This document shows, piece after piece, positions 11,864 through 63,084 of a stretch of DNA of 64,000 nt; position 1 is the first letter of the stretch, and each line of letters begins with the position of its first letter. Position numbers and translations under genes: made by a program. The notes under the pieces are model-generated. The model saw only the letters and a list, made by a program, of their open reading frames with translations. It was not told the DNA's origin and made no database searches. This DNA is from Verrucomicrobiales bacterium (lineage in GTDB: Bacteria; Verrucomicrobiota; Verrucomicrobiia; Verrucomicrobiales; DEV007), in NCBI GenBank assembly GCA_029213195.1, contig JARGNI010000016.1:30333-94332 (forward strand), in the 5' to 3' direction.

Positions 11864-13264
11864 ATGGCCGATATTTCCTCCCTCAAAGAAGCGCTGTCGG
11901 CGTCCCCTGACAATCTCCCGCTTCTTCTCCTGCTCGGGCAGGCCTATCTCGAGGACTTGCAGCTCTCCGAGGCTAAAGAGACTTTCGAACGAGCACTTTC
12001 TCTTCATCCAGGGAATCCGGTGGCTAGAACCCAGATTGCGCAGATCCTCGATCTCGAGGGGAAGTCTTCCGAGGCGATCCTGCGGCTCGACCAACTCGCT
12101 GTGGATCATCCCGAGTTTGCTCCCGCCTGGATTCTGAGATCCAAGTTTGCCCTCAATGAAGGGGAAGCTTCCGTAGCGCGAGACTGCTATGAACGCGCCA
12201 TTTCCATCGATGCCACGCTCGCCGATCCAGAGCTCCTCAAGCGCATTCGCGAGGCGGGGGGAGGCAGTCGCGGACGAGGGAGGACTGCTGCCAGTCATCT
12301 CTCCCAGGAAGCCGTGAACGATGATGGCTATGGCTCGGATTTCGAAGACGATGATTTTGAGAGCGATCCATTCGAGGAGGTGACGGATGGGCTCGAGTTC
12401 GAGGAAAACTCCGAGATCGACTTCGATCACGCTGGGGGGATGGAATCGGTGAAGGAGGATATCCGGATGAAAATTCTCTACCCGATGGAGAATCCGGAAC
12501 TCTTCGAAGCCTACGGGAAAAAGGCCGGTGGTGGCGTGCTGCTCTATGGTCCTCCGGGATGCGGGAAAACGCTGATCAGTCGAGCCACTGCAGGAGAGAT
12601 CGATGCAAAGTTTCTCAACGTCGGTTTGCACCAGATTCTCGATATGTGGATCGGAAAGTCCGAGGAGAAACTCCACGAGATTTTTGAGATGGCGCGCAAG
12701 AATGCTCCTTCTGTTCTCTTTTTTGATGAGGTGGACGCACTTGCGGCCGACCGAAAAGACATGCGGAGTTCTGCGGGGCGAACCTTGATCAACCAGTTTC
12801 TCTCCGAGCTCGATCGCGATTCGGCAAAGAACGATGGGGTTCTTGTTCTCGGTGCCACCAACGCTCCCTGGCATCTCGATTCCGCTTTCCTGCGCCCCGG
12901 GCGATTCGACCGGTTGGTCTTTGTTCCTCCACCGGACCTGGAGGCACGGGCCGAGATCATTCGCATCGTAGCCGACGGGAAACCGATTGGCGGATTGGAT
13001 CCCCTCGCGTTGGCGAAACGTCTCGAAGGGTTTTCAGGGGCCGACATCAAGGCCATCTTCGACCAGGCTATCGAGGCTTCGTTGGGGAAAGCGATGAAAA
13101 CCGGAAAGATCGTGCCGATCACCCAGAAACAACTCCTGAAATCTGCCAAGGGAGTGCAGCCGAGCACGAAGAAGTGGTTCGAGAGCGCGAGGAACTATGC
13201 CCTCTACGCGAATCAGAGTGGCTTCTATGACCCCATCCTGAAATATCTCGGGATCGAGAAGTAG
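11864..13264 (+). CDS. TPR-AAA+ ATPase (classical AAA type)
   Basis: Cytosolic ATPase of 466 residues with three parts. Tetratricopeptide repeats occupy about residues 1-125 (LGQAYLEDLQLSEAKETFERAL and similar). A very acidic linker lies at about 150-188 (GYGSDFEDDDFESDPFEE). A classical AAA domain follows, with Walker A GPPGCGKT (229-236), Walker B VLFFDEVDA (284-292), sensor-1 Asn in GATN (333), and arginine fingers in FLRPGRFDR (344/347). The pore loop is MWIGKSEEK, aromatic-hydrophobic as in protein-translocating AAA proteins. It resembles the FtsH/CDC48/Vps4 group but lacks a protease domain and a second AAA ring. The following gene, 28 bp downstream, encodes another TPR protein with membrane segments, suggesting a two-gene operon. 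The substrate is unknown. Confidence 0.88.
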   Translation: MADISSLKEALSASPDNLPLLLLLGQAYLEDLQLSEAKETFERALSLHPGNPVARTQIAQILDLEGKSSEAILRLDQLAVDHPEFAPAWILRSKFALNEGEASVARDCYERAISIDATLADPELLKRIREAGGGSRGRGRTAASHLSQEAVNDDGYGSDFEDDDFESDPFEEVTDGLEFEENSEIDFDHAGGMESVKEDIRMKILYPMENPELFEAYGKKAGGGVLLYGPPGCGKTLISRATAGEIDAKFLNVGLHQILDMWIGKSEEKLHEIFEMARKNAPSVLFFDEVDALAADRKDMRSSAGRTLINQFLSELDRDSAKNDGVLVLGATNAPWHLDSAFLRPGRFDRLVFVPPPDLEARAEIIRIVADGKPIGGLDPLALAKRLEGFSGADIKAIFDQAIEASLGKAMKTGKIVPITQKQLLKSAKGVQPSTKKWFESARNYALYANQSGFYDPILKYLGIEK

Positions 13265-13292: not shown

Positions 13293-14570
13293 ATGAGTGA
13301 ATTGGCACACGGTTTGTTGCTGCAAGAGCAGGGGAGATTGGAAGAGGCCGAGGCCTGTTTCCAGCAAGTCCTGATGCAGGAGCCGGAAAACGATTTCGTC
13401 TACGGTCGTCTCGCTCTCTGCCAGCTCAACCAGGAAGGGAAGAAGAAGGCGTCCCTGAGATCGGTCGAAGAGGCGATTCGAATCCGACCCGATGGAAGTT
13501 TTTACCATGCCCTCAAATCCCTGGTCCTCGCCGATCTGTGCAAAGGAAAAGAAAGCCTGGTGTCCGCCGATACCGCCCTTGCCCTGGCACCAGAAGACGG
13601 ATTTGTCCTCGCGGCGAAGGCGAATGCGTTCTGTTCGCTCCAGCGGTGGGCAGAGGGAGAAGAATGGAGTCGCAAGGCACTCACGGCGGATGGCGAACAC
13701 CCCATGGCGACAAACCTGCTGGCTCACTGCCTGCGGATGCAGGGCAAGGGGGAAGAGAACCGGGAAGCCGTCGGGCGTCTTCTCGCGGCCGATCCGGAAA
13801 GCATCCTGGCCCATGTCAACGCTGGATGGAGTGCATTGCAACACGGGGAGCAGGAACAGGCGGAATCCCACTTTCGCGAAGCACTACGGATCGACCCGGA
13901 GCTGGACATGGCTCGCGAGGGTTTGATCGAGTCCTTCCGAGCGCGGTCCATCTTTTATCGAGCCTACCTCTCGTATGTTTTTTTTCTCCAGCGATTCACC
14001 CAGGGGCGAAAATGGATGATCCTGATTGGGATCATCGTGATCTACCAAGTGAGCTGGCGCTTGCTGGAGCGAGTCCACCCCATGGCCGCGGTCGGGGTCG
14101 GGCTTCTCTTTCTCACCCTGGTGATGTGGATCTGGCTCGCTCCGGGGGTGGGGAATTTCCTGATCCTGATGGATCGTTCCGCCCGTCTCGCGCTGCGGCC
14201 AAGAGAAAAAGGGCAGGGGATCGCCGTAGGAGGAGCGGTGGTAGTGGGGCTTGTCCTCGTAACCGTCGGGGTCTTCGCCGAGATCCTCCCTGCGATTTTC
14301 TCGGGCGGCTGCCTGATCGCTTCCGCCGTTCCTGCGTCGCTTTCCTGGGGGAACGAGTCGAGAGCGGGTCGACGAGTCTTTGGCAGCATCACTGGGGTGC
14401 TCTATGGCCTCGCGGTGATTCTTCCCCTGCTCCTGATGGGGCAGAAAGTGACAAGCGAGGATGACTTGCCTCCGTTGGTTGCTCCGATTTCCCTCTTTGG
14501 TCTGCTTCTCGTAGTGGCTTCTACCTGGCTGGGGAATCTGCAATCGCTGCGAACTCCTACCGAAGAGTGA
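13293..14570 (+). CDS. TPR protein with C-terminal polytopic membrane domain
   Basis: A 425-residue protein. The N-terminal half (about residues 1-210) is built of TPR units, for example HGLLLQEQGRLEEAEACFQQ and ALQHGEQEQAESHFREALR. The C-terminal half has about six hydrophobic segments (WMILIGIIVIYQVSW, MAAVGVGLLFLTLVMWIWL, IAVGGAVVVGLVLVTVGVF and others). The start ATG at 13293 lies 28 bp after the AAA+ gene stop on the same strand. By family knowledge TPRs bind partner proteins, so it may anchor the ATPase or its client at the inner membrane; this is inference. No enzyme motif was seen. Confidence 0.8.
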   Translation: MSELAHGLLLQEQGRLEEAEACFQQVLMQEPENDFVYGRLALCQLNQEGKKKASLRSVEEAIRIRPDGSFYHALKSLVLADLCKGKESLVSADTALALAPEDGFVLAAKANAFCSLQRWAEGEEWSRKALTADGEHPMATNLLAHCLRMQGKGEENREAVGRLLAADPESILAHVNAGWSALQHGEQEQAESHFREALRIDPELDMAREGLIESFRARSIFYRAYLSYVFFLQRFTQGRKWMILIGIIVIYQVSWRLLERVHPMAAVGVGLLFLTLVMWIWLAPGVGNFLILMDRSARLALRPREKGQGIAVGGAVVVGLVLVTVGVFAEILPAIFSGGCLIASAVPASLSWGNESRAGRRVFGSITGVLYGLAVILPLLLMGQKVTSEDDLPPLVAPISLFGLLLVVASTWLGNLQSLRTPTEE

Positions 14571-14618
14571 GTGAGAGAAGGGGAGATTTCGATTCGCAAG
14601 AATCGAGAAATGAGGGCA

Positions 14619-14648
14619 CAAAAAACGGCGAGGGTTGCTCGCCGTTCT
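14619..14648 (-). terminator. Rho-independent terminator of rplS
   Basis: Arms aacggcgag (14624-14632) and ctcgccgtt (14638-14646) enclose a 5-nt loop. On the minus strand the hairpin is followed by a T run (complement of the A run before 14626). It lies 25 bp after the rplS stop codon and may also serve the converging TPR gene. Confidence 0.85.
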
Positions 14649-14672
14649 TCAAAAGTCGGGAGGGAATTTCCC

Positions 14673-15020
14673 TTACTTGGCGCGCTCCTTGAGGTTGGTC
14701 GCTGCCTTACCGACACGGTTGCGGAGGTAATTGAGCTTGGCCCGGCGCACCTTGCCGCGTTTGAGGACTTCCACTTTGGCGACCTTGGGGGAGTGAACCT
14801 GGAAAACACGCTCAACCCCTTCGCCGTTGGAGATCTTGCGAACCGTGAAGGCCGCATTGATACCACCACCGCGGCGTCCGATGACAATTCCCTTGAAGAT
14901 CTGGATACGCTCTTTACCACCCTCCACAACGCGAGAGTGCACATTGACGGTATCTCCCTGAGAGAACTCGGGAACGTCTTCTTTCATTTGCTCGCGCTCG
15001 ATTTTATCAATCACGTTCAT
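14673..15020 (-). CDS. rplS: 50S ribosomal protein L19
   Basis: Structural protein of the large ribosomal subunit at the interface with the small subunit. The 115 residues match the normal L19 length. Diagnostic segments are [43 protein letters not shown] and [17 protein letters not shown], ending in the basic [16 protein letters not shown]. It stands alone here, without the usual rpsP-rimM-trmD neighbours, divergent from tRNA-Asp and closed by a strong terminator. Confidence 0.97.
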
Positions 15021-18412: not shown

Positions 18413-19459
18413 ATGCTCATGCCCAACACTGGTGATTCGAGTTCCCGGGCCCTTCGCCGCATGCCGGCAGAATGGGAGCCGCAGGAAGCGATGTGGCTGA
18501 GTCTGCCTCATCGAAAGGGACTTTCTTATCCCGGTGCGCACTGGGATCGCGTCTATCCCGAGTATCTTGCCTTCCTGCATGCTCTGGCCGAGTCGGGGGC
18601 GGTCTATCTGAATGTTTCTTCTGAAGCGGAAGAGGAGAGAATCCGGCGGGACATCGCAGAGTCACTCCAGGATCAGGTTCGCTGCTTTCCGATTCCTACG
18701 GACGAACCCTGGTGCCGGGACCACGGGGCGACGTTCGTGTTGGAGGATGATAAGGAGATGCTCGCGATCGACTGGGACTACAACGCATGGGGCGGGAAGT
18801 ATGAGCCTTACGAGAAGGATGCGGCGGCGGCTCGCACGATGGCAGAGAGCAGGGGAATCCCCTGCGAACGACCCGGGATTGTCCTGGAGGGGGGAGCGCT
18901 TGAAACCAATGGGTCAGGGCATCTCCTGACCACGGCGAGTTGTCTCCTTGATCCCAACCGAAATCTAGGTCGTTCCCGCGAAGAAATCGAGATCGTGCTG
19001 ACACGCTGCCTGGGGGTTGACACAATTTCCTGGTTGGAAGGTTCGATTCCCGGAGACGATACCGAAGGTCATATCGATACACTCGCCAGATTCGTTTCGC
19101 CCGAAGTGATCGTCTCCGCTGTTTCCCCGCAGGAACTAGTTGGCGGGGAGTCGGTCCTCGACGGTGTCGAGATTCTTCCGCTACCGACTCCAGCTCCGCT
19201 TTCCTGGAAAGGGAATCCGCTCCCGGCCAGCTACGCCAATTTCGTGATCGCGAACCGGTCCGTTATTGTTCCCGCCTACGGCGGGGACTCCGACGACCGG
19301 GCTCGAGCAATGCTTCAGGAGCATTTCCCGGATCGCGAAGTCCGTCTGCTGTCTTCCCGGGAGCTGATCTTCGGTCTGGGCAGTTTTCACTGCCTGACCC
19401 AGCAACTACCAGCCGAGCAGGTAGGCAAAGATGAGGGGCGCGACGATAGTGGCGTCTGA
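18413..19459 (+). CDS. aguA: Agmatine deiminase
   Basis: Hydrolyses agmatine to N-carbamoylputrescine. A 348-residue guanidine-modifying enzyme with MPAEWEPQEAMWLSLP at the N-terminus, TDEPWCRDHG (D97), LEGGALETNG, H220 in GDDTEGHIDTLARF, and the nucleophile C327 in GSFHCLTQQLP. The usual glycine-rich run before the Cys (GGGGIHC-type) is here GLGSFHC, a mild divergence that keeps the nucleophile. The 3' end overlaps the convergent DHS-like gene by 54 bp, so the last 17 or so residues (KDEGRDDSGV) are shared DNA. Together with speA and aguB it completes arginine to putrescine. Confidence 0.94.
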   Translation: MLMPNTGDSSSRALRRMPAEWEPQEAMWLSLPHRKGLSYPGAHWDRVYPEYLAFLHALAESGAVYLNVSSEAEEERIRRDIAESLQDQVRCFPIPTDEPWCRDHGATFVLEDDKEMLAIDWDYNAWGGKYEPYEKDAAAARTMAESRGIPCERPGIVLEGGALETNGSGHLLTTASCLLDPNRNLGRSREEIEIVLTRCLGVDTISWLEGSIPGDDTEGHIDTLARFVSPEVIVSAVSPQELVGGESVLDGVEILPLPTPAPLSWKGNPLPASYANFVIANRSVIVPAYGGDSDDRARAMLQEHFPDREVRLLSSRELIFGLGSFHCLTQQLPAEQVGKDEGRDDSGV

Positions 19460-20380
19460 TTCGATCACGAACTTGGGCGTCTCGACACCGAGCTTGCCCC
19501 ACGTGATCTTTTCATTGGGAACTGCTCCGGAGTAGGAACCGTAGCTGGTCGTCGAGTCGCTGATCTGTGCGAAGTATCCCCAAAGCGGGACCTCGGTCAT
19601 CTCGAGATCCTGGTGGAGCATGGGCACGACGCAGATGGGGAAATCTCCGGCGATACCGCCTCCGATCTGGAAAAAGCCAACTGACGATTTGGGGGCGGCT
19701 TCCCGATACCAGTCGGCCAGCGAGGTCATATACTCGATCCCGCTTCGGACAGTGTGAACATTCTTCACTTTGCCTTCGAGGCAACGTGCGGCGTAGATAT
19801 TCCCGAGGGTGCTGTCCTCCCATCCCGGGACAAAAATGGGCAGGTCCCGTTCCGCCGCTGCCAGCATCCAGCTGTTCGCGGGATCGATCTGGTAGTGGGC
19901 CTCCAGTTCTCCGGATTTCAGGGCGCGATAGAGGAACTCGTGGGGAAAGAAACGCGCACCGGTTTCATCTGCCTTTCTCCATTCCTGCAGAACAGCCCGC
20001 TCCATGCGTCGCATCGCCTCTTCCTCCGGGATACAGGTGTCGGTGACCCGGTTGAGGTGACGGTCCAGCAGGGACTGCTCATCCTGTGGAGTGAGATCCC
20101 GGTACTGGGGGATTCTCTCGTAGTGATCGTGAGCGACGAGGTTGAAGAGATCCTCCTCGAGATTAGCCCCGGTGCAGCAGATCGCATGCACCTTTTCCTG
20201 CCGAATCATTTCGGCGAGAGATCGCCCCAGTTCGGCAGTACTCATCGCGCCCGCCAGGGTCATCAGCATGCTGCCTCCGTCTTGAAGGTGGGTCTCGTAG
20301 CCGCGTGCCGCGTCGACCAGGGAGGCTGCGTTGAAATGGAGGAAGTGGTTCTCGAGAAAATCGCGAATCGGAGAGCTCAT
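19406..20380 (-). CDS. Deoxyhypusine synthase-like protein, possible homospermidine/spermidine-type synthase
   Basis: A 324-residue NAD-dependent aminobutyl-transferase fold related to eukaryotic/archaeal deoxyhypusine synthase. The NAD and active-site segments are visible: ICCTGANLEEDLFN, FVPGWEDSTLGN, QIGGGIAGDFPI and the catalytic-Lys region NEKITWGKL (K296). Bacteria lack the eIF5A substrate, and bacterial homologues have been reported to join an aminobutyl group to putrescine. Its position 14 bp behind speA, facing aguB-aguA, supports a polyamine role. Which product is made (homospermidine, spermidine or other) cannot be read from sequence. Start ATG at 20380. Confidence 0.88.
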   Translation of the reverse strand: MSSPIRDFLENHFLHFNAASLVDAARGYETHLQDGGSMLMTLAGAMSTAELGRSLAEMIRQEKVHAICCTGANLEEDLFNLVAHDHYERIPQYRDLTPQDEQSLLDRHLNRVTDTCIPEEEAMRRMERAVLQEWRKADETGARFFPHEFLYRALKSGELEAHYQIDPANSWMLAAAERDLPIFVPGWEDSTLGNIYAARCLEGKVKNVHTVRSGIEYMTSLADWYREAAPKSSVGFFQIGGGIAGDFPICVVPMLHQDLEMTEVPLWGYFAQISDSTTSYGSYSGAVPNEKITWGKLGVETPKFVIESDATIVAPLIFAYLLGW

Positions 20381-20394
20381 GGGGCGTCGACGGT

Positions 20395-22359
20395 TCAGGA
20401 CCAGTGGTCGAAATAGGTGGAATCGTTCATGGCGCGACGGTAGTTCTCGACGAATTGCTGCGCCACCGGATTCGAAATTTTTCCCTCCACGACTCTTTCC
20501 GCGATGAGAGTTTCCATCCGCTCGACAAGTCTCTCCGGATCATATTCGACAGACCGGAGAATGTCCTCGATTCGGTCGGCAAGAACCTTTCGGGATAGTG
20601 CCAGTTCTCCATCGACGAAATCGACGCTGACGGCGTGGGTATCTCCGAACAGATTGTGCATGTCGCTGAGGGTCTCCTGGTAGGCTCCGACCATGAAAAC
20701 CCCGATAAGGTATTCTTCATCCGGGCGGATCTTGTGGACGGGTAGACGCTTTGCCTTTTCGTTTCCCAGTGAGAGATCGAGCTTTCCGTCACAGTCACAG
20801 GTCAAGTCCGCCACCACTGCGGTCCGGGTCGGTTCTTCGAGATGGCGATGCAGCGGCATGACCGGGAACTGTTGGTGAATCGCCCAGTTGTCGGGCAGTG
20901 ACTGGAAGACGCTGAAGTTCCCGTAGTAGATGTCCGCCATCTTGTCTTCGATTTCGCTCAGTTCGCCGGGAATGGATTCGAGAAGCAGCGATCGCTCTCG
21001 AATCCGAGTCACCAGATGCCAGAAGAGTTGATCGGCCACGGCACGCTCCCGGAGGCTCACCGCTCCGAGGGCGAAGGAACTGCGGATCTCCTCCCGCCGA
21101 AAGGTGGCCTCGTGGTAGAGAGGAAGCAGGGACTCGCCGTCCTCCATCGAATCGATCAAGTCATTCAGAGCGGAAATATTCTCATCCCAGCCTTCCTCGA
21201 TTGCGACACGGGGGCGCTCGGGAAGCTCTGGGGTGTTCACGTCTAGAACGTCCAGTGCAAGGATCGAGTAGTGAGCTGCGATCGCTCGACCAGACTCGGT
21301 CATGAGGATGGGAGGATCGACTTCGGCCTCGTCGGTAACGCGTTTTACGATGTCGACGATCGCGTGGCAGTACTCGTCGATTTCGTAATTCCGTGAGTGA
21401 GACTCCGAACTCCGGGTCCCGTCATAGTCGACGGCAAGCCCGCCTCCGAGATTGAGAATTCCCATGGGAGCTCCTTCTGCGATGAGCCCCGTGTAAACGT
21501 GCACGGCTTCGGATACGGACTCTCGAATTGACTGGATATCCGGGAGCTGAGATCCCTGGTGAAAGTGGAGACATTTCAGGCAGTCGAGACGGCCGGACGC
21601 TCGGAGCGCCTCAACGGTCTCGAAAACCTGGGCGACATTGAGACCGAAGAGGCTCTGCTCTCCGCTCGACTCTACCCAGTATCCCTTGCCAACGGTGGAG
21701 AGCCGCACTCGAATCCCGAACTCCGGATCGACCCCAAGTTTTTCGGATTCCTCCAGGATCAGGTTGAGCTCACGGGGCCTCTCGATGATCGGAACAATGC
21801 GATGCCCGGCGACCGCTGCCTGGAGCGCCAGGCGAATGAATGCTCGATCCTTGTATCCGTTGCAGATCAGGTAGGCCTCTGAATTGTTCAGATAGGGCAG
21901 TGCCGCGACGAGTTCCGCCTTGCTTCCCACTTCGAATCCATAGTGATACGGCCTCCCGAACGTCGCGATATCCCGGATCACCTGGTGTTGCTGGTTCACC
22001 TTGACCGGAAACACTCCGCGATAGTGATTGCCGTAGTCGAGGTCTTCAATCGCCGATTGGAACGATTCGTTCAGGAGACGGATCCGTTGGCTCAGGATCT
22101 GCGGAAAGCGAAGCAGCACGGGTGGATTGATGCCCTCTCGGTGGGCCAGCTCGAGGACCTTGACGAGGCTTGCCTCTACCTCAGTGCCATCGTCGTTCCA
22201 GTATACGGAAACTTCCCCCTGCTCATTGATCCGAAACAGCCCTTTTCCCCACCGATCAATCCCATAGACCCGATTTGCGTCTTTCAGGCTCCAGTTTGAG
22301 GAGAGGGAGTGAGGGGGCTTCATTGACGTAGAAATGATGCTTCGCTGTTTTTCTGGCAT
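20395..22359 (-). CDS. speA: Biosynthetic arginine decarboxylase
   Basis: PLP-dependent decarboxylase making agmatine from arginine, the entry step of this polyamine route. The 654-residue length is that of the SpeA family (about 630-660). Fold type III features are seen: the PLP-binding lysine in RGVFPVKVNQQ (K120), the glycine-rich phosphate loop ILNLGGGLAVDYDG, the conserved HFHQGSQLPD, and the C-terminal domain with YLIGVFMVGAYQETLSDMHN. It starts at ATG 22359 and lies 14 bp upstream of the DHS-like gene on the same strand, forming a two-gene transcription unit. Confidence 0.96.
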   Translation of the reverse strand: MPEKQRSIISTSMKPPHSLSSNWSLKDANRVYGIDRWGKGLFRINEQGEVSVYWNDDGTEVEASLVKVLELAHREGINPPVLLRFPQILSQRIRLLNESFQSAIEDLDYGNHYRGVFPVKVNQQHQVIRDIATFGRPYHYGFEVGSKAELVAALPYLNNSEAYLICNGYKDRAFIRLALQAAVAGHRIVPIIERPRELNLILEESEKLGVDPEFGIRVRLSTVGKGYWVESSGEQSLFGLNVAQVFETVEALRASGRLDCLKCLHFHQGSQLPDIQSIRESVSEAVHVYTGLIAEGAPMGILNLGGGLAVDYDGTRSSESHSRNYEIDEYCHAIVDIVKRVTDEAEVDPPILMTESGRAIAAHYSILALDVLDVNTPELPERPRVAIEEGWDENISALNDLIDSMEDGESLLPLYHEATFRREEIRSSFALGAVSLRERAVADQLFWHLVTRIRERSLLLESIPGELSEIEDKMADIYYGNFSVFQSLPDNWAIHQQFPVMPLHRHLEEPTRTAVVADLTCDCDGKLDLSLGNEKAKRLPVHKIRPDEEYLIGVFMVGAYQETLSDMHNLFGDTHAVSVDFVDGELALSRKVLADRIEDILRSVEYDPERLVERMETLIAERVVEGKISNPVAQQFVENYRRAMNDSTYFDHWS

Positions 22360-28740: not shown

Positions 28741-30480
28741 ATGGCTGTTTTCTTATCAATCCTACAGATTCTCGGAAGTCTTGGCGTGTTCCTCTACGGG
28801 ATGAAAGTCATGAGCGAGGGTATCCAGCGTGGTGCTGGAGATCGCATGCGCAAGGTGATGGAGACGATGACGCACAATCGTTTCACGGCCGTCCTCACGG
28901 GGGCGTTTACGACGGGATTGCTGCAGTCCTCCTCAGCCACCACGGTGATGGTGGTCAGTTTCGTCAATGCGGGGCTCCTGACCCTGGTGGAGTCGATCGG
29001 AATCATCATGGGAGCGAACCTGGGAACGACCCTGACTGCTTGGATCATTGCGCTAGTGGGTAAGTTCTCTATTGCCAAGATTGCCATTCCCATCATCGGA
29101 GTAGGTCTGCCCTTCTTTTTTGTCGGGAAAGATCGCTGGAGAAGTTTCGGGGAGTCTCTGATTGGTTTTGGGCTCCTCTTCTTCGGGCTGGGGTTGCTGA
29201 AGAACAGTGTTCCGGATGTGAAGGGCATGCTGGGATCGACCGATGCCGAGGTCGTTGCGCAGGCGGAGGCGGTGCTTGGTTTCGTGAAAGGGCTCAGCGG
29301 TTACGGGTATGGTTCGCTGCTGATTTTTCTCCTCATCGGCATCGTTTTGACGTTGGTCGTGCAGTCCTCGTCTGCGGCGATGGCGATCACCGTGACCCTG
29401 GCGATCAACGGATGGATCGGGTTTCATGAATCGGCGGCGATTGTCCTCGGTGAGAATATCGGAACAACCGTGACGGCCTGGCTGGCTTCGCTCGGGGCCA
29501 ACGTCGGGGCGCGCAGGGCGGCGCGAGCCCACTTCCTGTTCAACGTGCTCGGCGTGGCCTGGATGCTGATTGCGTTTTACCCCTTCACCGGCTTTGTCGA
29601 GTGGTTGGCGGCGCAGCTTCCGGAGTCGCTGCGGACCGATCGGATTGCGACCGATATGGGATTCACCCTCGCGATTTTCCATTCTCTCTTCAATCTTCTG
29701 AACATCTGCATCCTTGTCGGATTTGTGCCTCTCATCGCGAAACTCGTGACGAGGTGGGTCCAGGAACCTCCGCCATCTCCCCGACGGCGATTGAAATTTA
29801 TCTCCCAGAGCCGTCTCGATGTGGGAGAACTCAACATGCCGGAAGCCGAGGAAGCGATCCGGGAGCTCAGTGGGTTGACCCTTGAAATGTTCGATGGATG
29901 CATGCGGGTCTTTGACAATCCGAATCATGATCTATCGAGTGAGGTGGAGCGTCTCAAGCAACTGGAGGACGACGCGGATGTCCTCACTCACGACATCACC
30001 GAATACCTGGTCCAGACAACGGCCGCGGAAATCAGCGTCGAAAATGCCCAGGTGGTGGGAAGTCTTCTCCGGAACGTGGCGGAACTGGAAGAGATTTCGG
30101 ACTCGATCTATCGTCTCATTCGCATGGCCGAGAGGCGTTACCAGAAGGGCTACGCTCTCGGCGAGGAGGCTTCGGCGGGGCTTCGCAGTCTTTCGGAAGC
30201 TACGAGGGAGTCCATTCTCTACTACGACCAGAATCTACTCAGCCCGCTGGGGCAGGCTCAACTCGAGGAGATTCAGGAAATCGAGGAACGGACCGATGTG
30301 CTTCGCAAGGAGCACAATCGACAGGCGATGGAACGAATCAAGTCGGGCAGTGATGTTCCGGCGGAAATGCTCATCATCGATATGTCGAACCACCTCGAGA
30401 GCATCGCGAATCACGCGCGGAATGTGGTGGAGCAGGCTCACCTCGGGCAATCCGGGAACGATCCCGAGGTCACGGAGTAA
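28741..30480 (+). CDS. Na+/phosphate cotransporter family protein (NptA/PNaS) with PhoU-like C-terminus
   Basis: A 579-residue inner-membrane transporter for inorganic phosphate. The two inverted repeats each carry the QSSSA signature (LQSSSATTVMVVSFVNAG and VVQSSSAAMAITVTLA), with the GANLGTTLTAW and GENIGTTVTAW loops typical of Na/Pi cotransporters. The last about 200 residues form long helices of PhoU type (EAEEAIRELSGLTLEMFDGC, LLRNVAELEEISDSIYRLI). It stands alone, with no pho genes nearby, followed by a bidirectional-looking terminator shared with the convergent thioredoxin-like gene. Confidence 0.92.
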   Translation: MAVFLSILQILGSLGVFLYGMKVMSEGIQRGAGDRMRKVMETMTHNRFTAVLTGAFTTGLLQSSSATTVMVVSFVNAGLLTLVESIGIIMGANLGTTLTAWIIALVGKFSIAKIAIPIIGVGLPFFFVGKDRWRSFGESLIGFGLLFFGLGLLKNSVPDVKGMLGSTDAEVVAQAEAVLGFVKGLSGYGYGSLLIFLLIGIVLTLVVQSSSAAMAITVTLAINGWIGFHESAAIVLGENIGTTVTAWLASLGANVGARRAARAHFLFNVLGVAWMLIAFYPFTGFVEWLAAQLPESLRTDRIATDMGFTLAIFHSLFNLLNICILVGFVPLIAKLVTRWVQEPPPSPRRRLKFISQSRLDVGELNMPEAEEAIRELSGLTLEMFDGCMRVFDNPNHDLSSEVERLKQLEDDADVLTHDITEYLVQTTAAEISVENAQVVGSLLRNVAELEEISDSIYRLIRMAERRYQKGYALGEEASAGLRSLSEATRESILYYDQNLLSPLGQAQLEEIQEIEERTDVLRKEHNRQAMERIKSGSDVPAEMLIIDMSNHLESIANHARNVVEQAHLGQSGNDPEVTE

Positions 30481-30604: not shown

Positions 30605-31306
30605 CTACTCCGATGCCGAGCCCATCTCGGCCAGTTTGCTGAAAATGGCGGAGGAGCCGTTGGCAATTTCCTTCCCGTCCTTGTCTCTCAGCGAGTAATG
30701 AGGAACCGAGTTGCGGGTCCGGTAGTCGGAAAGGTCACTGCGAGGAACATCCTTGGGCAGAACGGTCAACCAGGGGAATCCATGAGCCGCAGCCCAAGTT
30801 TCCGCGGCATCTTCGTCTCGATCCTGCGAAATGTGGATCATGGTGACCTTCGGGTTCTTCGCAATCACTTCATTGTATTTCTCCACCAACTGTGGAGCAG
30901 AAGCGCGACAAGGGGGTCACCACGAAGCGGAGTAGTAGAACAGGTAGAATTCCGGAGTCTTCTCCAACTCGGCTCGGCGATAGCGTTTTCCATCGAGGCG
31001 CTGCAGCTTGGCCTTGGCGACCTTCTTTCCTACTTCCGACTCGGTATCGGGGCCTGCCGAGGCAGATGGGGAAGAGGTGTTGTTCCAGTTTTTGAGCCAC
31101 GTCTGATCATCGCTCGAAAGCTTGTCGATCGGGAAGGTAAGAAGCCTGCCGTCCTGGGTGACGACCGAAACCGTCCCCTTGGTGGCATCGAAGGTCCGGG
31201 CAGTACCTTCAAAGGTTTTGGTTCCATCGGCGCTGGTCCACGTCCGTTGCTCCGCAGATACTGAGACAAAGGCAAGAAGAACAGCTGCGCATATTGCTGT
31301 TTTCAT
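30605..31306 (-). CDS. Secreted thioredoxin-like protein with SHD1-like domain, probable selenoprotein (UGA at codon 130)
   Basis: Reads as 233 residues if UGA at 30917-30919 is decoded as selenocysteine. The N-terminal signal peptide is MKTAICAAVLLAFVSVSAE. Residues about 20-75 form an SHD1-like beta domain (RTWTSADGTKTFEGTAR, TFPIDKLSSDDQTWLKNW). A linker follows, then a thioredoxin fold from about 105. The redox site is SASW-U-P-P-C-R: UGA stands exactly where thioredoxins have their first Cys, and the second Cys (133) follows. The frame then continues in phase through VTMIHISQDRDEDAAETW and the cis-Pro loop NSVPHYSLRDKDG. A hairpin suited to a bacterial SECIS follows the UGA. Without UGA readthrough the gene appears as two pieces (30917-31306 and 30605-30889). 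A plain nonsense mutation cannot be excluded. Expected role: periplasmic thiol/selenol redox. Confidence 0.78.
30881..30919 (-). promoter_or_regulatory. SECIS-like element following in-frame UGA
   Basis: On the minus strand UGA (30919-30917) is followed after 19 nt by CTCCAC-AGTTG-GTGGAG (30897-30881), a perfect 6-bp stem with a 5-nt loop. The UGA-to-loop distance is 25 nt and the loop has a G at its second position followed by U, as in known bacterial SECIS elements recognised by SelB. The pairing is seen directly; function is inferred. Confidence 0.6.
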
Positions 31307-31456: not shown

Positions 31457-32248
31457 ATGGCAGCGACTTATTCCGAAACCCTCCAGAATCGCATTTCGAC
31501 GACAGGCAGCGCCCTTTGTGTCGGGCTCGATCCCAGGCCGGATCGACACGATTCCCTGGGCGAGATCGAGGCATTCTGTGAAAAGGTGATCGAGGAGACG
31601 GCCGAGTATGCTGCCGTTTTCAAACCGAATATCGCGTATTTCGAGGCTCTCGGCGTCGCGGGCTACGAGATGGTGGAGCGCCTCATTGGAAAGATGAAGG
31701 GCACGGGAGTGCCCATCGTTCTCGATGCAAAACGAGGCGATATCGGGACAACACAGGAGCACTACGCCAAGGGCTACTTCGAAGGCTGGGATGTCGATGC
31801 CGTCACTTTGAGCCCCTACATGGGTTTTGATTCGGTCGAGCCATTCCTCCAGTATCCCGGCAAGGGAGTGTATCTTCTCGGAGTCACCTCGAACGCTGGC
31901 GCCGCGGATCTCGAGACCCACGATCTCGCCGATGGACGAAAGGTTTTCGAACTCGTAGGGGATATGACTCGACGAGATGAGGAGACGCCCGCCGGAAAAG
32001 GCAGCATCGGATTGGTCCTCGGATTGACCAATGCCTCGAGCGAAGTTCTTGCAAGAATGCCCGACGTCCCGCTCCTCATTCCCGGCCTGGGGGCGCAGGG
32101 TGGGGATCTCGACGCTTTGCGAGGAGCTGGTCGAACGGCACCTTCCGTCATCAATGTTTCCCGTGGTATCCTCTATGCCGGGGATGAGCTTTCCTTTTCA
32201 GAACTAGCCAAGAATTATGCAGACAGAATTGCCAACGTCATCGGATGA
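31457..32248 (+). CDS. pyrF: Orotidine 5'-phosphate decarboxylase
   Basis: Last step of UMP synthesis, OMP to UMP. 263 residues, type 2 (bacterial long) family, with the DAKRGDIGTT catalytic motif (D90, K92, D95), the N-terminal CVGLDPRPD, phosphate-binding VINVSRGILYA, and GVTSNAGAADLE. It starts at ATG 31457 and overlaps pyrE by 32 bp, so the two consecutive pyrimidine enzymes are translated from one message. Confidence 0.96.
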   Translation: MAATYSETLQNRISTTGSALCVGLDPRPDRHDSLGEIEAFCEKVIEETAEYAAVFKPNIAYFEALGVAGYEMVERLIGKMKGTGVPIVLDAKRGDIGTTQEHYAKGYFEGWDVDAVTLSPYMGFDSVEPFLQYPGKGVYLLGVTSNAGAADLETHDLADGRKVFELVGDMTRRDEETPAGKGSIGLVLGLTNASSEVLARMPDVPLLIPGLGAQGGDLDALRGAGRTAPSVINVSRGILYAGDELSFSELAKNYADRIANVIG

Positions 32249-60520: not shown

Positions 60521-61279
60521 CTACTTCTTCGCAAGAATTCGGACGTGGGCCCGATGATAGAAGTGGGAGCAGTGCAGGATCTCGCTGAATCCGGCCTTGG
60601 TCACAAACTTGGCGAAGGTTTGGGGTGACAGATACCACATGTGTCCCGGAGGGCCGAGATACTTCCATGACTGACCTGCGATCTTGGCTTTGAAGTGAGT
60701 CACGCTGGGAACAATCGCGAAGAGCATTCCGCCGGGACGAAGGATGCGATAGATCTCTCCGAGGGTTTGATTCAAATCATGAACGTGCTCGAGGACGTGA
60801 AGCGCGACGACGAGGTCGAAGGTGTCGTCCTCGATGCCCATGCTCTGGATGTCTCCTTTCTGGGCGTTGAGGCCTCGACTTTGGGCGTAGGCGAGAGGGG
60901 CTTCGGCGTAGTCCACGCCTCTTGCATCGAATCGAGGATTATCCTTCACCGAGCTCAGAAAATCACCCTGCCCGCATCCGATCTCGAAAGTCTTGATCGG
61001 CTTGTCCTTGGGGAACTTGCTTGCGATCCACTTGGAGAAAGCGAGATACTTGAGCTTTCGCAGGAATCCACCGGCCGGGATGAAGGTATCGCCCTCCGGC
61101 TGATACGTGGGAGCGTAGAACTTCCTCAGGTAGTCCGCGCTGGGATAGTCCTGGATGAAGATAAAGCTGCAGTCTTCACACTCGACTACGTGGTAGCCGT
61201 CCTTTTCACGCCAAGGCTTGTGTTTCGTTCCGTTGCAGAGCGGGCAATGTTCGAGGATCGTGTGTTCGGGAAGAGCCAT
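60521..61279 (-). CDS. Class I SAM-dependent methyltransferase with N-terminal zinc motif
   Basis: 252 residues from ATG 61279. The first about 40 residues hold HCPLCNG and VECEDCSF, a four-Cys zinc ribbon. The SAM domain has FEIGCGQGDFLSSVK (motif I) and DLVVALHVLEHVHDL (motif IV region) with YRILRPGGMLFAIVPS. This 'zinc ribbon plus methyltransferase' layout is common among sugar- or lipid-modifying methyltransferases in polysaccharide loci. It sits near the MBOAT pair but on the opposite strand. Confidence 0.88.
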   Translation of the reverse strand: MALPEHTILEHCPLCNGTKHKPWREKDGYHVVECEDCSFIFIQDYPSADYLRKFYAPTYQPEGDTFIPAGGFLRKLKYLAFSKWIASKFPKDKPIKTFEIGCGQGDFLSSVKDNPRFDARGVDYAEAPLAYAQSRGLNAQKGDIQSMGIEDDTFDLVVALHVLEHVHDLNQTLGEIYRILRPGGMLFAIVPSVTHFKAKIAGQSWKYLGPPGHMWYLSPQTFAKFVTKAGFSEILHCSHFYHRAHVRILAKK

Positions 61280-61467
61280 GAGATTCCGTGGTTCGACGGG
61301 CAAAAAAATTGGCTCTTTTGCCCGTTGCTGCCGTTCATACGCGACAAGAACGGCTCCGTCAAAACCAATTCTTCTCGATCCCGAGGAAGATCGGCCCCTG
61401 TTTCCGCCGGGCCAGGAATGATGAATCTGCTGGACTCGACCTTTCGAGATGAGTTACTAGTCCAGTG

Positions 61468-63084
61468 ATGGGCAGGTGTGAACGGTTGGAGACGATGGCT
61501 TTGGAGGAGGGGCAATGGAAGACTCGGGTCGCCTGCGCCTGGAATCCATTTCTCGGTTTTTCTATCCTTTGCCTGATCTTCGCTTTCGTGGGAGTGAATA
61601 GACTCTCTGGAAAGGAGGTGCGTGTCTGGACCAGTGCAGAGGGGCGGACTCTGGAGGCCTCTCTCGTAGAGGCGGGAGAGAGGGAAGTGACTTTGCGGCT
61701 TTCCTCGGGACAGGAGGCGATTCTCCCGCTCTCGAGGCTTTCTCCCTCGGATCGAGAGTATATCCAGCAAGTTTCGAAACGAGGCGGCGGTCGAAATCTG
61801 GAGCCACTTCCTCTGGAAACGGCACTCTCCGATTCGGTGGAGGTCAAAGGTGGGCCGAGGGTGTTTCGATCTCCCCATTTCGAATTCCGGAATGATCGCG
61901 ATGTCTCTCCTGCTTTTGTCGCGGAAGCGGCCAGGATTTACGAGGGGACGCTGGCTGCACTCCATGCCATACCTCACGGTCTTGAACTCGCCCCACCCGA
62001 AGGACAAACCCATTTTCGTGGACGTTTTCTCGACGAGACGGACTTCGATATGATCGCGGAGGAGAGAATGGGGACGCTTCCGGGGCAGCGCGTTGTTGGG
62101 CTCTACCTGAGCGATAGCAAAGAATTGCTCGTTCCCTATTCTTCGCTCGGAGCCAAGCAACTTGGCTCGAGAATGACTCTGCGAAAGTCGAGTGACACCT
62201 CGACCCTGGTTCATGAAATCGTGCACCAGGTCATGCATGACTGGCTCCCGGTGTTTCCGACGTGGTTTTCCGAAGGTCTTGCCGAGTATCTTGCATCCAT
62301 CCCGAATCAAAATGGTCGATTCATGTTCCGATACGCCGAACGGGGCTTGAAAACCCGGCTCGAGGATAGGCATGGGGTATCGGGTCGAGTTATCCAGGGG
62401 GTGACACGGCCCTCGCGTTATTTCGAAGGAATCGTCAGTGCTTCCCTGACCGATGCCGGGGCCGGCCTCGGCGGAGACCGGGAAGTTGCCGGATCCATCC
62501 AAACCGATTCCGTGGGGGGTGCCGGCGGGACGCAGGATATGCGATTCGATACCTGGAATGGTACTCTTGCCGAGTATCGGGATGCGATGCTCTACCTCTA
62601 CTTCTTCATGCACCTGGCTGAGCCTGAGCAGGCAGGGGACCAGGTCGGTCGATATCTGCGAGCCGTCGACATCGCCCTGGGAGAGACCGACCAGATACGG
62701 AAAGAAGTCGGAGCGTTCGAGAAGCAGCGAGTCTTCTACAACAAGGCAGTTCGGGCCTACAACGAGGAACTGGGGGAATTTCGGAAAGCCGTGGAGGCCT
62801 ACAACCGAAAGGTCGTCGAATACAACGATCAAGTGAAGTCCGGGGTCCCCTTGGAGAAACGAATTCGAGTGGGAGAAATTCCAAAACTTCCGGTGGCCCC
62901 GGAACGTCCTGAAATGGCCGAGTCGATTCGGCTCCTCGTTGACGACCGAAGAAGCATCAATCTCGTTCACTTCGTGCAAAGCCGCTCGCTGGAGGTTCTT
63001 CTCGATGGCAGGTCTCTCCGTCAACTCGATGACGCCTTCCGCCGAGCCTTCGCAGAGCTCGGATGGGATATTCAGTTTCGCTAG
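61468..63084 (+). CDS. SHD1-domain metallopeptidase-like protein
   Basis: 538 residues from ATG 61468 (GTG 61465 and ATG 61495 also in frame). An N-terminal anchor (WNPFLGFSILCLIFAFVG) is followed by an SHD1-like domain (about 50-105: VRVWTSAEGRTLEASLVEA, LPLSRLSPSDREYIQQVS), the same type as in the selenoprotein at 30605-31306. Residues 249-275 hold a gluzincin motif, HEIVHQ with the downstream FSEGLAEYL; HExxH and the third Glu are intact. The C-terminal part is helical, Lys/Glu-rich (EKQRVFYNKAVRAYNEELGE). A secreted or surface peptidase is likely; substrate unknown. Confidence 0.78.
   Translation: MGRCERLETMALEEGQWKTRVACAWNPFLGFSILCLIFAFVGVNRLSGKEVRVWTSAEGRTLEASLVEAGEREVTLRLSSGQEAILPLSRLSPSDREYIQQVSKRGGGRNLEPLPLETALSDSVEVKGGPRVFRSPHFEFRNDRDVSPAFVAEAARIYEGTLAALHAIPHGLELAPPEGQTHFRGRFLDETDFDMIAEERMGTLPGQRVVGLYLSDSKELLVPYSSLGAKQLGSRMTLRKSSDTSTLVHEIVHQVMHDWLPVFPTWFSEGLAEYLASIPNQNGRFMFRYAERGLKTRLEDRHGVSGRVIQGVTRPSRYFEGIVSASLTDAGAGLGGDREVAGSIQTDSVGGAGGTQDMRFDTWNGTLAEYRDAMLYLYFFMHLAEPEQAGDQVGRYLRAVDIALGETDQIRKEVGAFEKQRVFYNKAVRAYNEELGEFRKAVEAYNRKVVEYNDQVKSGVPLEKRIRVGEIPKLPVAPERPEMAESIRLLVDDRRSINLVHFVQSRSLEVLLDGRSLRQLDDAFRRAFAELGWDIQFR

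Follow-up and report, generated by a model that had tools for sequence, protein, structure and literature searches.

A probable thioredoxin-fold selenoprotein of the UxxC kind, predicted to be exported, in the Verrucomicrobiales

Selenoproteins of the thioredoxin fold with UxxC, that is, with selenocysteine (Sec) in place of the first Cys of a CxxC-type site, are well known, and passages of two reviews list several kinds, namely a Prx-like thiol:disulfide oxidoreductase, thioredoxin, thiol:disulfide interchange protein and a redoxin family protein (PMC9312934, PMC13188914). A thiol-disulfide isomerase-like selenoprotein with UxxC comes from the Sargasso Sea (PMC1088965), and its family is filed under pfam13905 in one of these reviews (PMC9312934) and under cd02966 in the other (PMC13188914). 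By domain, this family is nearest to the protein predicted here from a genome of the Verrucomicrobiales, sharing UxxC and Thioredoxin_8 with it in a comparison made by description only. The other UxxC selenoproteins share Sec at the first CxxC-type position, the thioredoxin fold and UGA decoding, while the passages of the two reviews mention no N-terminal SHD1-like domain for them; a word starting with Verrucomicrobi is absent from the main texts of both (PMC9312934, PMC13188914). Homologues of the same layout (P0003–P0010) match nearly the full length of our protein at 47–53% identity and differ from it by a Cys at the site. Models of ResA and DsbE score far below their cut-offs (27 versus 170 bits and 25.8 versus 123 bits), and none of the 14 NCBIfam models listed, selenoprotein and redoxin families included, exceeded its curated cut-off.

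The earlier note had suggested that the combination of export, SHD1-like domain and Sec is undescribed. This stands in so far as no NCBIfam model fits and no description of an exported SHD1-like thioredoxin selenoprotein was found in a literature search outside which most subscription papers lay, but it must be narrowed, since thioredoxin-like selenoproteins with UxxC are well known and the SHD1 match is sub-threshold. We assign the protein to a new family within a known kind of selenoprotein, that of the thioredoxin fold with UxxC. The labels exported and SHD1-like are attached to this family by prediction and by a sub-threshold score, and the Sargasso Sea family serves it as a reference by description. 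As a family of exported selenoproteins it is probably uncatalogued.

Gene and predicted protein

The window, i.e. the whole stretch of 64,000 nucleotides that was analysed, spans positions 30333–94332 of contig C21, on which the gene occupies positions 60937–61638. In window coordinates, the features are the following:

30605..31306, minus strand: gene of a predicted selenoprotein of 233 residues, U130 included (a single TGA in the read-through frame; UGA at 42 distinct sites of relatives)
31253..31306, minus strand: likely signal peptide, residues 1–18 (by eye from the sequence)
31076..31252, minus strand: SHD1-like N-terminal beta domain, residues 19–77 (PF03983 sub-threshold; confident beta strands in the model)
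30611..31036, minus strand: thioredoxin-fold domain, residues 91–232
30917..30919, minus strand: TGA within the frame, predicted to encode Sec where W-[U/C]-P-P-C has its first redox Cys (read-through frame; Cys in homologues)
30908..30910, minus strand: codon of Cys133, the other redox residue of the U-P-P-C site (the same in all 26 aligned relatives)
30881..30897, minus strand: predicted bacterial SECIS with a 6-bp stem and the 5-nt loop AGTTG (pair conservation, synonymous redraws, covariation)

Reading the minus strand from 31306 to 30605 with TGA as U gives one frame of 233 residues, in which the single TGA (30919–30917) is residue 130 in the context FYYSASW-U-PPCRASAPQLVEKY, while translation with table 11 splits the gene into an ORF of 129 aa ending at the TGA and one of 94 aa. 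The joining of two frames at a UGA on the first redox Cys (SASW-U-P-P-C), from which the earlier note started, is thus confirmed. Among the ORFs of the window that reach 300 aa, 50 in number with overlapping chance ORFs included, 31 end in TGA, which is therefore otherwise an ordinary stop here.

Both halves of the thioredoxin fold, including the cis-Pro loop, are intact as had been claimed: Thioredoxin_8 (PF13905) matches with 41.1 bits, exceeding the gathering cut-off of 27, the AlphaFold2 model has a mean pLDDT of 89.1, and the CxxC-type site and Pro202 (cis-Pro) are invariant across 26 aligned relatives. For the N-terminal domain the similarity to PF03983 holds, which is carried by other homologues according to precomputed annotation, and the beta strands of the region are confident in the model; the score of the U130 protein (19.9 bits) lies below the Pfam cut-off of 23.7, so that we speak of an SHD1-like domain only. 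An RTWTS-type domain is also fused to other partners (P0102, P0104). Residues 1–18, judged by eye, suggest that the protein is exported. The gene neighbours encode a Na/Pi cotransporter with PhoU domains (28741–30480, plus strand) and an orotidine phosphate decarboxylase (31457–32248, plus strand), with no obvious redox partner among these two.

Conservation of the UGA and of the hairpin behind it

Searching 288 genomes of the order returned a match in 285, many of the hits with one TGA inside. A motif scan of 50 loci, some of them overlapping, gave 51 sites, 46 of which are distinct and divide into 42 with UGA and 4 with Cys. The alignment proposed in the earlier note, in which relatives should have Cys at the U position, returned TGA in some relatives and Cys in others. 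Five further loci (L075, L077, L080, L081, L087) have TGA at the same site by tblastn; they lie outside the motif and are excluded from the 42. Three of these (L075, L080, L081) belong to more distant relatives, with the TGA contexts SF-U-REC and YW-U-ASC. The TGA-bearing hit of genome G197 (L070) is a Cys form whose TGA lies elsewhere. Among the best 11 of at least 80 loci on public contigs, 8 have UGA and 3 are without the motif, and Rubritalea profundi SAORIC-165 (L100) has a UGA member. Two UGA copies stand in tandem at each of three loci (L038, L041, L045) and three at a fourth (L047). The TGA codon is kept across the order while protein identity falls to about 31–62%, and since the same TGA recurs in many separate assemblies, a sequencing error is very unlikely.

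The same cut is visible in protein databases, where a search returned 106 hits, 23 of them only 128–148 aa long. All but one of these short homologues end in W just before the UGA, and the remaining one (P0035) begins just behind it; P0002, one of the 22 and listed without a source, differs by one residue from the window's own half-protein. Databases hold these short unnamed proteins because gene prediction cuts the genes at the active site.

Behind the UGA, CTCCAC-AGTTG-GTGGAG begins at a distance of 19 nt, with 30897–30892 pairing with 30886–30881 and G as the second position of the loop (30891–30887), so that the perfect 6-bp hairpin with a loop G described before is found as such at 30897–30881. 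For a distance of 16–37 nt from TGA to stem, 28 of the 1884 TGA trinucleotides on both strands of the window are followed by a similar hairpin, with a perfect stem of 6 bp and a G in the loop, and the 81-nt fold around the hairpin has z = −1.89. Taken alone, the hairpin is mildly unusual, not rare, and its strength comes from conservation. All six pairs are formed in 22 of the 42 UGA sites, five in 19 and four in one, and neither the G of the loop nor the U that follows two bases later varies (42/42). Paired cells make up 91.7% in place versus 30–63% when the partner strand is slid by 1–3 columns. Compared with 5000 synonymous redraws, for which codons were drawn from the same genes and which gave 3.10 pairs (sd 0.14, maximum 3.67), 5.5 of 6 pairs are observed. 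At the hairpin of the UGA sites, Ala is encoded by GCT in 37 of 42 (versus 19% elsewhere in the same genes), Pro by CCA in 36 of 42 (versus 16%), Val by GTG in 41 of 42 (versus 25%) and Leu by TTG or TTA in 36 of 42 (versus 13%).

Covariation is partial. Double-sided changes occur at three pairs, in one sequence each, a count that none of 500 shuffles reaches; the covariation score is 0.062 in place versus 0.061 with the stem slid by −1, and one stem pair is open in 7 of the 42 UGA sites without any compensation. It should be noted that these hairpin statistics are not independent trials, since the sequences are related. At the four Cys loci 4, 4, 5 and 1 of the six pairs are formed, the one with five being L053, and mean hairpin energy is −7.5 kcal/mol for the 42 UGA sites versus −3.7 for the 4 Cys sites. 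Judged from these alignments, the hairpin is conserved as RNA and partly covarying, with a codon choice that exceeds the needs of the protein.

Selenocysteine machinery and its co-occurrence with the UGA

The genome is a 5.9-Mb draft in 115 contigs and 95% complete. On contig C21, selD (12202–13131), selA (13396–14751) and selB (18498–20420) all score over their curated cut-offs; as the selenoprotein gene sits at 60937–61638, they lie about 40–49 kb from it. The selD gene has itself one TGA in frame (L010:1531, on C21 upstream of the window), at SSCAG-U-ASK, so its product is likely a selenoprotein as well, and the same is seen in selD of G083, G109, G112 and G086. Between selA and selB (L021:14775–18467, likewise on C21 upstream of the window) are encoded an ATPase, two permeases and a substrate-binding protein matching TIGR04553 (putative selenate ABC transporter) with 259.8 versus 250 bits. 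The order selD–selA–transporter–selB is common to G083, G109, G112 and G086, and G006 has selA and the transporter; selA without the transporter genes is seen in stretches from G023, G131, G232 and G221.

The search for selC gave a different result. The Rfam model placed none of the 150 scored candidates (of 929) in this genome over the cut-off, ARAGORN found none on C21:1–40000 or in the window, a hand-made anticodon/T-arm pattern gave two matches, neither of them a tRNA by ARAGORN, and the selC of a relative, used as a DNA query against the genome, gave short partial matches only. Among 14 hand-picked, selA-bearing relatives, a tRNA-Sec over the Rfam cut-off is present in 13, all called tRNA-SeC (tca) by ARAGORN; the one without a tRNA-Sec over the cut-off, G104, has the UGA gene. 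In three relatives selC lies upstream of selD, by about 5 kb (G083), 27 kb (G109) and 23 kb (G112). Since C21 starts 12 kb upstream of selD, selC may be off the contig, although at the spacing of G083 it would have fallen on it. Of the four sel genes sought elsewhere in the genome on the suggestion of the earlier note, selA, selB and selD were thus found on the very same contig and selC was not found in the 95% complete draft; absence of selC or selB from a complete genome, which the note had named as speaking against Sec, is not what we see, selB being present and the genome an incomplete draft. The selC of G109 is directly preceded by a gene that, judged by eye, resembles a cysteine desulfurase (L059:246–1388); its 48% match in our genome has no adjoining tRNA. 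In G073, a distance of about 0.6 kb separates two genes for tRNA-Sec (L064:802–894 and 1502–1596).

Across the order, 35 of the 36 genomes whose UGA site was read have selA over the cut-off, versus 56 of 252 others (Fisher p 3.9e-19). In this table, reading was by the motif, genomes with TGA-bearing hits that were not read count as non-UGA, which works against the association, and selA matches below the cut-off (4 genomes) count as absent. The sole UGA genome without a selA match is G248, whose copy (L069) has the disturbed site W-U-P-S-A without the second Cys, and it is possibly decaying after loss of Sec use. Cys forms occur with selA (G061, G132) and without it (G152, G197), and UGA and Cys orthologues are both found within one genus. 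In a tree of 38 chosen proteins, which does not settle the direction of change, Cys forms lie among Sec forms; the label changes at least 5 times, and well-supported branches force 2 of these changes. A sample of 240 genomes of the phylum gave 21 matching genomes at E <= 1e-20; as the 7 outside the order are without internal stop, the UGA form was confined to the order as far as this sample and threshold reach.

Proposed decoding and alternatives

We propose that codon 130 is very likely read as Sec and that the gene encodes an exported thioredoxin-fold selenoprotein with U130 as the attacking residue of U-P-P-C, in line with the probable selenoprotein of the earlier note and supported by selA, selB and selD on the contig, TGA or Cys at the site in relatives and a hairpin conserved as RNA. 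SelD, with its own in-frame UGA, would make selenophosphate, SelA would make Sec-tRNA(Sec) on a tRNA whose gene is presumed to be present, and SelB, bound to the stem-loop that starts 19 nt after the UGA, would deliver the Sec-tRNA(Sec), without which translation would yield the 129-residue N-terminal piece. Once exported, the protein may work on thiols and disulfides as a reductase or isomerase, in the manner of ResA, TlpA or tryparedoxin, and the SHD1-like domain may be an accessory module, perhaps for binding.

The short piece could also have a function of its own on top of Sec decoding, if at low selenium termination at the UGA freed the signal peptide and the SHD1-like domain. The position of the UGA behind this domain would fit, as would the other fusion partners of the RTWTS-type domain, but the piece includes part of the thioredoxin fold (residues 91–129) and might fold badly, and no sign of selection on it emerged in this analysis, so that we hold such a role to be very unlikely. 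Slightly less credit still goes to decoding of the UGA without Sec, for example by ordinary read-through with a near-cognate tRNA for Trp or Cys: the read-through frame looks alike whatever residue is inserted and this draft showed no selC, but the aligned residue of homologues is Cys, the UGA is accompanied by the hairpin and selA, and many ORFs of the window end in TGA. A pseudogene or sequencing error, in which the TGA would be a nonsense mutation or a Cys codon read wrongly and the full-length Sec protein would not exist, might draw on the Cys of homologues, the missing selC of the draft assembly and the disturbed UGA copy of G248, a genome that has no selA match, but is the least credible of all given the identical TGA at 42 distinct sites of the order with downstream half and resolving Cys retained and the association of the UGA site with selA.

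If reading of codon 130 as Sec is confirmed, this would add to the Verrucomicrobiales a redox system that depends on selenium and is predicted to be extracytoplasmic; in some of these genomes the sel cluster includes a putative importer of selenate. With this family one could test why a single catalytic position keeps Sec in some cases and loses it in others, and Rubritalea profundi SAORIC-165, in whose genome a tRNA-Sec is present, offers a named strain with both the UGA member and this tRNA.

With more reserve, we lean towards a wider picture, in which an order of Verrucomicrobiota has a so far uncatalogued family of selenoproteins, exported and of SHD1-thioredoxin architecture, that is tandem-duplicated in places, has repeatedly exchanged Sec and Cys, and in which the helix behind the active site would be dictated by the SECIS hairpin and not by the enzyme. 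Behind the site, UGA forms keep fixed codons and a sequence close to APQ[LV]V, and three of the four Cys forms read have drifted, while the fourth, L053, retains APQLV.
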